In this document: one piece after another, positions 5,727-64,000 of the stretch
How the letters are laid out: the number at the start of each line of letters is the position of its first letter
Numbering within the stretch: position 1 is the stretch's first letter
Notes under the pieces: generated by a model
What the model was told of the DNA's origin: nothing
What the model saw: only the letters and a program-made list of their open reading frames with translations
Databases searched by the model: none
Position numbers and translations under genes: made by a program
From: Sneathiella chinensis
GTDB lineage: Bacteria > Pseudomonadota > Alphaproteobacteria > Sneathiellales > Sneathiellaceae
Direction of reading: 5' to 3'
Assembly: GCF_012720115.1 (NCBI RefSeq)
Contig: NZ_VNWN01000004.1
Coordinates: forward strand, 434,001 to 498,000
Length of the DNA: 64,000 bases

Positions 5727-5795
5727 GAAAGGATCCTTCTTTCCGGTTTGGAACGGTGTTAGTCTTCTTGAAAAAAGACAATAACGGGGGGTTCC

Positions 5796-6590
5796 ATGTC
5801 CTACAAGTACGTTACCATTGAAAAGAAAAACCGGATTGCAACGGTTCGTTTTGATCGGGGGAATGAAATGAACCCCCTGTCCGTGGACCTGATGAAGGAA
5901 CTGACGGAAGCGGCCCGGTCGTTTGAGGGGGATACCGAGACAAATGTGGTTATCCTGACCGGGAACGGACGCAATTTTTCCGCAGGCTTCGATCTGAAGG
6001 ACGCCGCCCTGAAAGAACGGATGGAAGCCGGGATGCTGGAAAAGCGTCACATGCTGTCCGTTGGGCCAAAGCTGTGCAAGGCGTGGGAAGAGGTCGAGCC
6101 CATGACGCTGGTTGCGGTGGATGGATACTGTATTGGCGGCGGCGTTGCGCTGGCGGTGGCCTGTGATATGCGGATTGCCCATCCCGACGCCCTGTTTTAT
6201 GTGCCAGAAATCCGCAATGGCATGAATATGAGCTGGCAATCCATTCCCCGGATGGTCAACCTGATGGGACCGGCCAGAACGAAACAGCTTTGTATTGTCG
6301 CCGATATGATCACCGCGGCGCGGGCCGAGAAATGGGGGCTGATCGAGGAGGTGAGCGACGGTGTCCCAGCGTACGAGTTGGCGCTGGCCTATGCGGAAAA
6401 GATTGCGGAACGGCCGCCCATTCCGGTGCGCATGATCAAGCAGGGGGCGACCGCGGCGGCAACGGCCCTGAACCATGCGACCAGTTACATGGATCTGGAT
6501 CAGTATTCACTGGCCACCCTGTCCGAAGACTATGCCGAAGGCATTCAGGCTTTTGTGGAAAAACGGGCGCCCCGCTTCAAGGGGTGTTAG
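5796..6590 (+). CDS. enoyl-CoA hydratase/isomerase family protein
   Basis: A 264-residue crotonase-fold protein. The oxyanion-hole segments are NFSAGFDLKDA and DGYCIGGGVALAVACDMRIA. The usual catalytic Glu pair of true enoyl-CoA hydratases is not clearly conserved in FYVPEIRNGMNMSWQSIPRM, so hydratase activity is not assured and another crotonase reaction is possible. It stands alone between a divergent DUF1330 gene and a convergent membrane protein gene. The neighbourhood of acyl-CoA enzymes suggests a fatty or branched acyl-CoA substrate. Confidence 0.8.
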   Translation: MSYKYVTIEKKNRIATVRFDRGNEMNPLSVDLMKELTEAARSFEGDTETNVVILTGNGRNFSAGFDLKDAALKERMEAGMLEKRHMLSVGPKLCKAWEEVEPMTLVAVDGYCIGGGVALAVACDMRIAHPDALFYVPEIRNGMNMSWQSIPRMVNLMGPARTKQLCIVADMITAARAEKWGLIEEVSDGVPAYELALAYAEKIAERPPIPVRMIKQGATAAATALNHATSYMDLDQYSLATLSEDYAEGIQAFVEKRAPRFKGC

Positions 6591-6598
6591 GCGGTATC

Positions 6599-6618
6599 GG
6601 GGCAGGCGAGCCTGCCCC
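6599..6618. terminator. GC-rich hairpin between convergent genes
   Basis: GGGGCAGGC and GCCTGCCCC are separated by GA, a very stable stem just after the hydratase stop. There is no T-run on either side, so it may be a Rho-dependent 3' end or an mRNA-stabilising hairpin rather than a classical intrinsic terminator. Confidence 0.5.
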
Positions 6619-6651
6619 GGTCATTGCTGGAATTGGTAAGTTGGTAGTCTG

Positions 6652-7254
6652 TTATCGGCCTGTTCCCAGTTTTGCCAGTTGCCTGTCATGCAGGCGGGGC
6701 AGGGTGATCAGGGCCAGAATGGCGCCCAGCAGGGCCAGCGCCATGTCCGACTGGGTGTCCCAGACATATCCTTGTGTGCCAAGAAACGCCTCGGCGGCCT
6801 CGCCGCTGAGAAGGGCTGCCCACCATTCGATCAGTTCGTAAAAGGCGCTGAAGGCCAGACAGATACTGACAATGAACAGGGTACGCCATCCGGCGGAGGG
6901 GACCACGTTCAGGCGGATCAGGATTTCGCGGGCAATGATGGCGGGCACGAACCCCTGCGCCAGATGTCCGACCTTGTCATAGTTGTTCCGCTCAAACCCG
7001 AAAACCTCTTTCAGGTCGTCAAATAGCGGCACCTCGGCATAGGTGTAATGGCCGCCAATCATCAGAATGACCGCGTGGATCAGGATCAGCCCATAGAGAA
7101 GCGGGGTCAGCGGAAAGGTTTTTCGGGTGACGGCCAGCAGGATCAGGCCGATGATGGCCGGACTGACTTCCAGAAACCATGTGAAGCCGTCCTTCGGGTT
7201 GATGCCCGACCAGATCAGGACACCCAGATAAATCGCCAGCCAGAGTATTTTCAT
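6652..7254 (-). CDS. YjdF/DUF2238 family integral membrane protein
   Basis: A 200-residue protein with about six hydrophobic segments. It contains the DUF2238 pattern: GGHYTYAEVPLFDDLKE, then NNYDKVGHLAQGFVPA, and FYELIEWWAALLSG, with conserved Asp, His and Glu in or next to the membrane. The biochemical role of this family is unknown. Length fits E. coli YjdF (about 209). It lies 43 nt downstream of the SDR gene on the same strand and is probably co-transcribed with it. Confidence 0.85.
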   Translation of the reverse strand: MKILWLAIYLGVLIWSGINPKDGFTWFLEVSPAIIGLILLAVTRKTFPLTPLLYGLILIHAVILMIGGHYTYAEVPLFDDLKEVFGFERNNYDKVGHLAQGFVPAIIAREILIRLNVVPSAGWRTLFIVSICLAFSAFYELIEWWAALLSGEAAEAFLGTQGYVWDTQSDMALALLGAILALITLPRLHDRQLAKLGTGR

Positions 7255-7297
7255 CCCAAAAAAATCCTTTCCCGCGAACCCCTGTTGCGAGGGGGGA

Positions 7298-8062
7298 TTA
7301 CTTTACATAGAGGTCCCGCAAGCGCCGCATGCCGTTGATCCAGCGGTCATAATCGGCTGTTTTGCGGCGCATGTAGTCCAGCACTTTCGGGTGCGGCAGG
7401 ATCAGGAATTCCTCCCGGTCCATGGTCTCGATAACGCAATCGGCCAGTTCCTCCGGCTCCAGCGTACCGTCCACGTCGGAAACGGATCCGGCCCGGTTCT
7501 GGGTCATGGCCGTGCGGACCTGCTGCGGACACAGGACGGACACCCGGACCCCCTTGTCGCCATACCGGATCGCAAGGGTTTCGGCAAAGGCCACCGCCGC
7601 ATGTTTGCTGGTGGCGTAACTGGCGCTGTCGATCTGGCTGAGGAGCCCGGCGGCCGACGCCGTGTTGATCAGGTAACCGGAGCCGCGCTGGACCATCTTG
7701 TCCACCAAGGCGCGAGCCGCATAGACATGGGCCATGACATGGATATCCCAGTTCATCTGCCATATTTCGTCGGGGGTTTCCTCCCATCCATAGCGGGCAA
7801 TCCCGGCGTTGGAGACAAAGATATCAATGGGGCCGTATGCCTGTTCCGCTTGGGCGACAAGGTTCTGGATGTCGGCCTCTTTGGAAACGTCGCAGCGGAC
7901 TGCCAACCCGTCAATGCTGGCGGCAACCTCCTTGAGAAGGTCTTCCTGCAGGTCGGCGACGGTAATCCCGGCGGCACCTTCGGCCCGGAAGCGTTCCGCA
8001 AGGGCCTTGCCAATGCCGCTAGCACCGCCGGTGATGACGATATTCTTTCCTGCTACTTTCAT
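7298..8062 (-). CDS. SDR-family oxidoreductase
   Basis: A 254-residue classical SDR: TGGASGIG at residues 11-18, SNAGIA in place of NNAG, and the catalytic YATSK. The C-terminal half (FLILPHPKVLDYMRRK) resembles long-chain-alcohol or fatty-acyl dehydrogenase-like SDRs acting on hydrophobic substrates, but the substrate is unknown. The frame extends upstream to 8137, but the ATG at 8062 starts directly at MKVAGKNIVITGG with AGGGAGA as Shine-Dalgarno. It has 70-odd bp of upstream spacer before the gcdH terminator. Confidence 0.85.
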   Translation of the reverse strand: MKVAGKNIVITGGASGIGKALAERFRAEGAAGITVADLQEDLLKEVAASIDGLAVRCDVSKEADIQNLVAQAEQAYGPIDIFVSNAGIARYGWEETPDEIWQMNWDIHVMAHVYAARALVDKMVQRGSGYLINTASAAGLLSQIDSASYATSKHAAVAFAETLAIRYGDKGVRVSVLCPQQVRTAMTQNRAGSVSDVDGTLEPEELADCVIETMDREEFLILPHPKVLDYMRRKTADYDRWINGMRRLRDLYVK

Positions 8063-25653: not shown

Positions 25654-26532
25654 TTACCGCGCCTTTTCGGTAATGAACTCAAGAACGGTCTGGTTGAAAA
25701 GGTCCGGCTCTTCCAGATGGAGGAAATGCCCGGCCTCTGGCAGCAGGACTTTTTTCAGGCCTTCTGGATAAAGCTGTTCCATGCCGTCGGCCAGATCCAC
25801 CCCCATGCAGCCGTCTTTCATCCCCTGAAAATAGAGGCCGGGAACAGGGATGGGCTGGGTGCCGAAGCCGCTTTTCTTCTGGCCGGGGCGCGCCTTTTCC
25901 GGGGCGGGCCCAAAGGTGTGCCGGTAATAGTCAAGGGCGCTTTTAAGGACGCCGGGGCGGCGGAACGTTTCCTTCAGGTGTGCCATATAATCCTCGTCCC
26001 GTATCCATCCCGGTGACCAGTCGGCCCACAGGCGGTCAAGAAAGGCGAAATCATCATGCCGAACTGCCGCTTCGGCAAACGGGGAGAGAAAAAAGAACAT
26101 GTACCACGAACGGCGCTGCTGATCGGGATCGGTGATCAGGGCTTCGGCGAAGCGACGCCCATAGGGCACGGCAAGGGTGACCAGTTTGTGAATACGCTCC
26201 GGCGCGCGTAAGGTCGCGGCATAGGCGGCGGTGGCCCCCCAGTCATGACCGATCAGAAGTGTTTTCTCGATATTGAGGGCATCCAGAAGATTAATCACAT
26301 CAAGGGACGTTTCAGAGGCTGTAAAGCGGGGGTTCTGGTCCCGAATATCCGGGCCGTATCCGCGCATGAAGGGGGCGATGACGCGGTAGCCTTGGTTGCT
26401 GAAAAACCGGATCTGGTGTTGAAAGCTGTAGGGGTGATCCGGGAAACCGTGCAGGCAGAGGAGGGCAGGGCCGTCCCCGGCCTCAAGATAGTCCACCGGG
26501 GTTCCGGCAATCGTCAGCGTCTTTTTATCCAT
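25654..26532 (-). CDS. alpha/beta hydrolase, epoxide hydrolase-like
   Basis: A 292-residue alpha/beta hydrolase. The oxyanion motif HGFPD is at 28-32, and the nucleophile elbow is GHDWGA with Asp97 rather than Ser, which marks epoxide hydrolases and haloalkane dehalogenases. The acid-base His is in EAGHFLHLEEP near the end, and tyrosines that could polarise an epoxide lie in the lid (RRSWYMFFFL, DYYRHTF). The HGxP motif favours epoxide hydrolase. It is 10 nt upstream of nothing on its own strand except the response regulator start region, which precedes it by 10 nt, so it could be read through from the two-component genes. Confidence 0.83.
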   Translation of the reverse strand: MDKKTLTIAGTPVDYLEAGDGPALLCLHGFPDHPYSFQHQIRFFSNQGYRVIAPFMRGYGPDIRDQNPRFTASETSLDVINLLDALNIEKTLLIGHDWGATAAYAATLRAPERIHKLVTLAVPYGRRFAEALITDPDQQRRSWYMFFFLSPFAEAAVRHDDFAFLDRLWADWSPGWIRDEDYMAHLKETFRRPGVLKSALDYYRHTFGPAPEKARPGQKKSGFGTQPIPVPGLYFQGMKDGCMGVDLADGMEQLYPEGLKKVLLPEAGHFLHLEEPDLFNQTVLEFITEKAR

Positions 26533-62893: not shown

Positions 62894-63550
62894 ATGAACA
62901 GAAGAGATGAGGAAAAAAGGCGGCTTCTGGATGCTGTTTTGCCCCATGTCATGTTTGACGGGTGGTCCCGTGAGGCGTTCAAGCATGCCGCCAAGGACCT
63001 TGATATTGATCTGTTGACCTTTGATCGGTTTTTTCCGGGCGGCCCCGTGGACATGGTTTCCTTCTTCATTCGCGATGCGGATGACCGTATGGAAGCGGAA
63101 CTGGAAAAGCGCGGTGTCCTGTCCATGAAAATTCGCGACAGGATTACACTGGCCATTCGCTTGCGCTTGGAAATGTATGCCCCGCACAAGGATGCGGTTC
63201 GCAAGGCCCTGACCCTTCTGGCGTTGCCCCAGAATGCCGCCTTGGGCATGAAACTGACAGCGGGCACCGTTAGCCGCATGTGGTATGCGACCGGCGACCG
63301 GTCTTCCGACTTCAGCTATTATACAAAGCGCCTGACCCTGTCGGCGGTTTACAGTTCAACCCTGCTTTACTGGCTGGATGATACCTCGGACGATTGTCAG
63401 AATAGCTGGGGCTTTCTGGATCGGCGCATTGAAAATGTGATGCAGTTTGAAAAGGCCAAGTTCAAGACCCGGCAGGTCTTTTCCCGGCGTCCCGATCTGG
63501 GCTTCTTCCCGTCACCGGGCCGGTTCATCCGAAACCTCAAGGCCCGTTAG
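62894..63550 (+). CDS. COQ9-family protein
   Basis: A 218-residue protein of the COQ9 family, TetR-fold lipid-binding proteins that present ubiquinone intermediates to the hydroxylase COQ7. RRLLDAVLPHVMFDGWSREAFKHAAKDLDID is the N-terminal TetR-like part; MWYATGDRSSDFSYYTKRLTLSAVYSSTLLYWLDDTSDD is the diagnostic lipid-site block. ATG 62894 is taken; a TTG immediately before it is in frame. No other ubiquinone gene is near. Confidence 0.92.
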   Translation: MNRRDEEKRRLLDAVLPHVMFDGWSREAFKHAAKDLDIDLLTFDRFFPGGPVDMVSFFIRDADDRMEAELEKRGVLSMKIRDRITLAIRLRLEMYAPHKDAVRKALTLLALPQNAALGMKLTAGTVSRMWYATGDRSSDFSYYTKRLTLSAVYSSTLLYWLDDTSDDCQNSWGFLDRRIENVMQFEKAKFKTRQVFSRRPDLGFFPSPGRFIRNLKAR

Positions 63551-63589: not shown

Positions 63590-64000
63590 ATGCTGAACAA
63601 TAAAATCATCCTGATGACAGATGCTACCCATTTTCTGGGAACGCCCGGAACAAAGGCCCTGCTGGCGGAGGGCGCGACTGTGTATGCACAGGACGCGTCC
63701 TTTGAGGCCGAAGCAGCACGGCAGGCGTTTGAGGCGGCCCTGCCGGGCGCCGTCGCGCTGGCAGAGCAGGAACCTGCCGAGGTTGTCAGTGCCGTTGTTG
63801 AGGCCGCCGGGCGCATTGATGTGCTGATTAATAACGATGCCTATCCGGCGGTTCGTGCCCCCATTGACGAGGCGGATGTGGACGAGTTTCGGAAAACCCT
63901 GGACGCCCTGATGGTGCGGGGGTTTGCCTATGCCCATGCGGTTGCGCCGGGTATGAAGCAGGCGGGCCGGGGCAAGATTATTTTTGTCTCGTCCGCTGCG
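63590..64000 (+). CDS. halohydrin dehalogenase-like SDR, 5' part (cut by window edge)
   Basis: 137 residues remain, all in frame to the edge. The Rossmann glycine motif TGxxxGxG is absent; instead residues 10-17 are T-DATH-F-L-G, fitting T-x4-F-x-G, the halide/nucleophile-binding loop of halohydrin dehalogenases. Further along, AEQEPAEVVSAV, GRIDVLINNDAYPAVRAPIDEADVDEFRKTLDAL and GKIIFVSSA parallel Agrobacterium HheC (EQEPAE, VDVLVSND, IIFITSA), with S135 at the catalytic serine. The Tyr and Arg of the S-x12-Y-x3-R triad lie beyond the edge, so the assignment is incomplete. 39 nt downstream of the COQ9 gene and probably co-transcribed. Confidence 0.72.
   Translation, partial: MLNNKIILMTDATHFLGTPGTKALLAEGATVYAQDASFEAEAARQAFEAALPGAVALAEQEPAEVVSAVVEAAGRIDVLINNDAYPAVRAPIDEADVDEFRKTLDALMVRGFAYAHAVAPGMKQAGRGKIIFVSSAA

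Follow-up and report, generated by a model that had tools for sequence, protein, structure and literature searches.

What does the reading frame that runs off the right edge of this stretch of the Sneathiella chinensis genome encode, and what would its product do in a marine genus? The window, that is, the whole stretch of 64,000 nucleotides that was analyzed (G000:C14:434001-498000), ends within a gene in which the first-pass annotation saw a likely halohydrin dehalogenase (HHDH). HHDHs convert halogenated alcohols into epoxides and back and find use as biocatalysts; what they do in nature is a matter of presumption.

Extent of the truncated gene and its sequence signatures

The frame starts with ATG and stays open up to the right edge of the window, where 137 amino acids can be read. 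The genome sequence past that edge, on a contig of 757 kb, completes the gene at 243 codons plus a stop (L010:9590-10321), with its end 321 bases beyond the window (whole gene, G000:C14:497590-498321). The features within the window that are needed at this point are as follows:

63590..64000, plus strand: 5' 137 codons of the predicted halohydrin dehalogenase gene, one open frame with an ATG start
63617..63640, plus strand: HHDH motif 1, TDATHFLG, corresponding to T10-x4-F15-x-G17 (residues 10-17)

According to the available text of 2 publications (PMC11976700, PMC4989007), HHDHs are marked by the motifs T-x4-F/Y-x-G and S-x12-Y-x3-R, the SDR counterparts of which are T-G/A-x3-G/A-x-G and S-x10-14-Y-x3-K. 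The replacement of the SDR glycine motif by T-x4-F-x-G, already pointed out from the partial frame, is confirmed by TDATHFLG. The second motif, which had been predicted to lie downstream of the edge, was found there as S135, Y148, and R152 (residues 135-152, SAAPKHGLPNYSMYVAAR), with Arg152 at the position of the usual SDR lysine. Y-x3-K, named beforehand as the mark of an ordinary SDR, was looked for past the edge of the window, and Y-x3-R was found instead. All 6 motif residues of HHDHs are present in the gene product, and neither half of the classical SDR signature occurs in the 243-residue protein.

One expectation failed: a Trp-rich C-terminal segment had been anticipated, and the complete protein stops at ...YFAGGWA, its last residue being 243, without such a segment. 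HheC has a C-terminal extension bearing Trp249 that the Sneathiella protein lacks, and since the available text of PMC4989007 reports this Trp extension for HheC only, its absence is no objection to an HHDH.

Relationship to known dehalogenases and to SDRs

Searching the PDB sequences with the 243-residue protein returned dehalogenases as the top 10 matches, ahead of the first SDR reductase: 6a41 at an E value of 5.9e-73, followed by forms of HheC, HheA, and HheA2 together with 8oxf at 4e-47 to 9e-44, and FabG at 5.3e-34. The remoter HHDHs 7wkq (83.5 bits) and HheB (81.5) scored below many SDR reductases. The nearest solved structure, 6a41 (244 residues), is known by its PDB title, "Dehalogenation enzyme"; it is 50.4% identical to the Sneathiella protein over 242 aligned residues and shares with it both motifs, a near-equal length, and the C-terminal GGWA. 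We found no paper describing 6a41, and the literature search yielded none that names halohydrin dehalogenase together with Sneathiella or with Bradyrhizobium erythrophlei, which we take to be the source species of 6a41 and on which we did not rely. HheC of Agrobacterium radiobacter AD1 (1pwx, 5kwe) is 39.0% identical (to 5kwe) over 236 aligned residues, with both motifs and a PN[YF] loop in common; the blocks said earlier to run parallel to HheC are thus real and include a common EQEPAE. HheA (4z9f, 1zmo) is similar in length (244 residues) and 38.8% identical to 4z9f, with NPTYFP in the loop that reads SPTYFP in the Sneathiella protein. FabG-type SDR reductases such as 4nbu have the fold in common, whereas the Sneathiella protein has neither a glycine-rich NAD(P) motif nor Y-x3-K.

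How discriminating the motifs are can be judged from 29 control SDR rows taken from the genome of the window, 3 congeners, and GTDB relatives. Neither motif 1 nor S-x12-Y-x3-R was present in any of the 29, 26 of them carried S-x10-14-Y-x3-K, and 24 combined the glycine-rich NAD(P) motif with Y-x3-K. In the HHDH clade, 48 of the 60 full-length rows carried both HHDH motifs, 5 rows shorter than 230 residues (L030, L096, L105, L107, and L108) having been omitted from this count.

A maximum likelihood tree of 81 rows separated 63 HHDH-like rows, with HheA, HheC, and 6a41 among them, from 18 SDRs with an SH-aLRT support of 100; the tree is a quick search without bootstrap, the HheA and HheC branches are long, and the SDR rows had been picked as weaker matches, which favors the split. 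Within the HHDH clade, 6a41 lies on another branch, nearest to genomes of family f66, and HheA sits with other alphaproteobacterial genes (branch support, 98) to the exclusion of the Sneathiella gene. The position of HheC is not settled in this tree, which includes no HheB, D, E, F, or G references. Of the HheA to HheG groups proposed for comparison in the first-pass annotation, the tree covers HheA and HheC, and the gene falls into the clade that holds both. Because the gene falls neither within the HheA branch nor clearly beside HheC, we assign no subtype letter.

Structural comparison was made with a model of an ortholog (L061, 74% identical), built from 9 sequences, with a mean pLDDT of 85.1 and a pTM of 0.83 (pLDDT below 50 at residues 181-186, 203-210, and 240-243). 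Foldseek placed 10 dehalogenase chains on top, with 6a41 at 4.6e-30 and FabG next. VIA-align Z values ran from 32.8 (6a41) down to 30.4 for dehalogenases and from 30.9 downward for SDRs; since these ranges overlap, the fold alone cannot tell an HHDH from an SDR. For a relative with 34% identity, no entry named halohydrin dehalogenase appeared among the best 60 of 186 PDB matches, and this relative was not relied on.

These results bear directly on whether the protein could be an ordinary, though unusual, NAD(P)-dependent SDR that has acquired the HHDH motifs by coincidence. Domain assignment would leave room for such a protein, given that Pfam and NCBIfam return SDR-level families alone and that none of the best 25 of 210 NCBIfam rows reaches its cut-off, and so would the shared fold and the overlapping VIA-align values. 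We nevertheless regard this coincidence as very improbable: the T-G-x3-G-x-G nucleotide motif is missing, the catalytic lysine is replaced by arginine, the sequence search ranks HheA, HheC, and 6a41 ahead of every SDR, and Foldseek does the same for the 10 dehalogenase chains. The original suggestion of a truncated HHDH gene is borne out by both motifs, the PDB matches, the tree, and Foldseek, and we estimate at about 0.88 the probability that the gene product is a cofactor-independent halohydrin dehalogenase. As judged from sequence comparison, it would add an ordinary further member to the known HHDH family, the sole mildly unusual point being its broad presence across the genus without a partner gene found.

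Distribution and gene neighborhood

The HHDH gene is present in 21 of the 24 genomes of the genus. Both motifs are kept in all 20 full-length genes; in the 21st carrier, where a contig end interrupts the gene, motif 2 alone is visible. Across the 20 orthologs, which align without gaps, 93 of the 243 positions never vary, T10, F15, G17, S135, Y148, and R152 among them, and the median dN/dS is 0.127 when only pairs with dS below 2 are counted (45 of 190). The gene is under purifying selection in the genus. Among the remaining genomes, G010 has purK abutting a SulP gene with no HHDH remnant found, and this is a clean absence of the gene rather than an assembly gap. In G008, close to a contig end, purK has a different frame as its neighbor (best match in the genome, 6.3e-25 with 33% identity), and neither the HHDH gene nor purK was found in G002. 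As 2 of the 24 genomes are without the gene although purK was found, the HHDH is not essential to the genus. The 21 carriers, together with a clean absence in at least 1 genome, provide a comparative and genetic handle on the natural role of HHDHs.

Beyond the genus, 42 of 385 sampled Alphaproteobacteria genomes gave a match at E ≤ 1e-40; both motifs occur together in one gene in 33 of these, 5 of which belong to this genus; 8 have no such gene, and in 1 (G116) the gene is cut. The description of the family as sparse in databases does not hold for Alphaproteobacteria, where 33 of 385 sampled genomes carry a both-motif gene. In a phylum-wide sample, 2 of 398 genomes matched, one being the genome of the window itself, at a threshold (E ≤ 1e-45) that differs from that of the class-wide search. 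A candidate fusion in G089, a frame of 1,116 residues ending in an HHDH (L056), was set aside, as Pfam at E ≤ 1e-5 sees only SDR-fold domains in it, at residues 880-1115.

In the genome of the window, the HHDH gene lies between a COQ9-family gene on its 5' side and purK on its 3' side. This arrangement differs from that of the HheC gene, which shares an operon with an epoxide hydrolase (available text of PMC11976700). Two further features of the window are relevant:

62894..63550, plus strand: COQ9-family gene (Pfam PF08511, TIGR02396), directly upstream of the HHDH gene with a 39-base gap
25654-26532, minus strand: putative soluble epoxide hydrolase (best match among solved structures, 5ng7 at an E value of 6.8e-37; Pfam alpha/beta hydrolase)

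The 3' neighbor is nearly constant, purK following the HHDH gene in 20 of the 21 genus loci (the exception is L026). Upstream, COQ9 is found in 10 loci and a SulP-type anion transporter gene replaces it in 9 (L017, L019, L022, and L024-L029); a TPR-repeat frame (L031/L050) and a contig end (L030) account for 1 locus each. No conserved functional operon was found among the 21 loci. The order COQ9-HHDH-purK recurs in another genus of the family (G024, HHDH 55% identical), whereas outside the family none of the 3 genes COQ9, SulP, and purK was found near an HHDH gene in 28 loci (stretches of 2.2 to 13 kb) or in 27 shorter stretches, which come partly from the same genomes. With the order common to 2 genera and none of these neighbors found in the 28 loci from outside the family, the HHDH gene appears to have been inherited together with its chromosomal place, and the common neighbors COQ9, SulP, and purK look like an inherited gene order, not a pathway. 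No conserved epoxide-hydrolase or halide-handling partner was found beside the HHDH gene in the loci examined. In a separate observation, L118 has a SulP gene beside purK, the HHDH gene being missing between them.

The gene at 25654-26532 had been described as epoxide-hydrolase-like, and by sequence it is: its product probably is a true epoxide hydrolase, its matches to haloalkane dehalogenase profiles being weak and far below the cut-off. Its suggested link to the HHDH gene fared less well. A single haloalcohol degradation route made up of the 2 enzymes would draw on the best solved match of the hydrolase being an epoxide hydrolase, yet 37 kb separate the genes, which lie on opposite strands, and the hydrolase gene occurs in only 2 of 24 genus genomes (E ≤ 1e-50) compared with 21 of 24 for the HHDH gene. 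We consider such a joint route hardly credible, and the same counts rule out the hydrolase as a conserved partner of the HHDH.

Proposed reaction and native role

For catalysis, reaction direction, substrate, and biological role of the Sneathiella enzyme, we infer the following from known HHDHs. In these enzymes, Ser places the hydroxyl of the substrate, Tyr takes its proton, and Arg lowers the pKa of Tyr; the motif 1 loop and other loops contribute the residues that form the anion pocket (available text of PMC4989007). By analogy with HheC, Ser135 would hold the hydroxyl of a vicinal haloalcohol and Tyr148, its pKa lowered by Arg152, would accept the proton; the oxygen would then displace the adjacent halide, yielding an epoxide. 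The leaving halide would enter a presumed pocket formed by the T10-x4-F15-x-G17 loop and, putatively, the loop at 178-188 (PNFVESPTYFP). Since the reaction is reversible, the enzyme could equally use small anions to open epoxides. The natural role of HHDHs is assumed to lie in haloalcohol detoxification and degradation (PMC11536340, available text), and for the Sneathiella enzyme the stand-alone removal of haloalcohols or epoxides would be the likeliest function.

The persistence of the gene nevertheless allows a different reading of its function, namely that the protein descends from HHDHs and keeps their Ser-Tyr-Arg triad, while its native job is another reaction of epoxides or beta-substituted alcohols with a physiological anion and dehalogenation is a side activity. 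Retention in 21 of 24 genus genomes with no epoxide hydrolase partner found would be in keeping with such a job, as would the SulP anion transporter gene that adjoins the HHDH gene in 9 of 21 loci; in addition, the available text of PMC4989007 counts only 2 known HHDH genes that share an operon with an epoxide hydrolase gene and leaves room for other physiological functions. Nothing, however, points to a substrate or pathway for this other job, and the neighbors, with 0 of 28 loci and 0 of 27 shorter stretches outside the family, look like inherited order. We therefore think this alternative unlikely, though worth keeping in mind, and retain stand-alone removal of haloalcohols or epoxides by a halohydrin dehalogenase as the preferred reading. 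A more general proposal, that the original job of the whole HHDH family was an endogenous epoxide or anion reaction and not the breakdown of halogenated pollutants, is speculative and in our judgment doubtful. It would build on the gene being nearly fixed in one genus, on its place predating the split of the 2 genera, and on no degradation partner having been found. If it were true, Sneathiella would offer a natural setting in which to look for the native substrate of HHDHs.

Exceptions within the HHDH-like clade

One or both motifs are missing from 12 of the 60 full-length rows of the clade, and clade membership alone is thus no guarantee of the HHDH reaction. In L032, L086, and L089 (family f40), the central aromatic residue of motif 1 is Trp (T-x4-W-x-G), with S-x12-Y-x3-R intact. 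Thr of motif 1 is replaced by Ser in L082 and L094; the same exchange in HheC, T7S, leaves an active enzyme (available text of PMC11976700). L040, L109, and L110, which belong to the HheA branch, keep motif 1 and lack a Tyr where the catalytic residue aligns. Finally, all 3 matching genomes of one alphaproteobacterial genus (g98) carry a tandem pair of HHDH-like genes (L100:5647-7140; L101, about 5780-7324; L102, about 5860-7337). One gene of each pair has S-x12-Y-x3-R; the other has Gln in place of Arg and a motif 1 without the aromatic residue, and in L100 the first-mentioned gene of the pair has Ile in place of the motif 1 Thr. The sequences of these pairs suggest a catalytic subunit together with a non-catalytic one, or else a new reaction.
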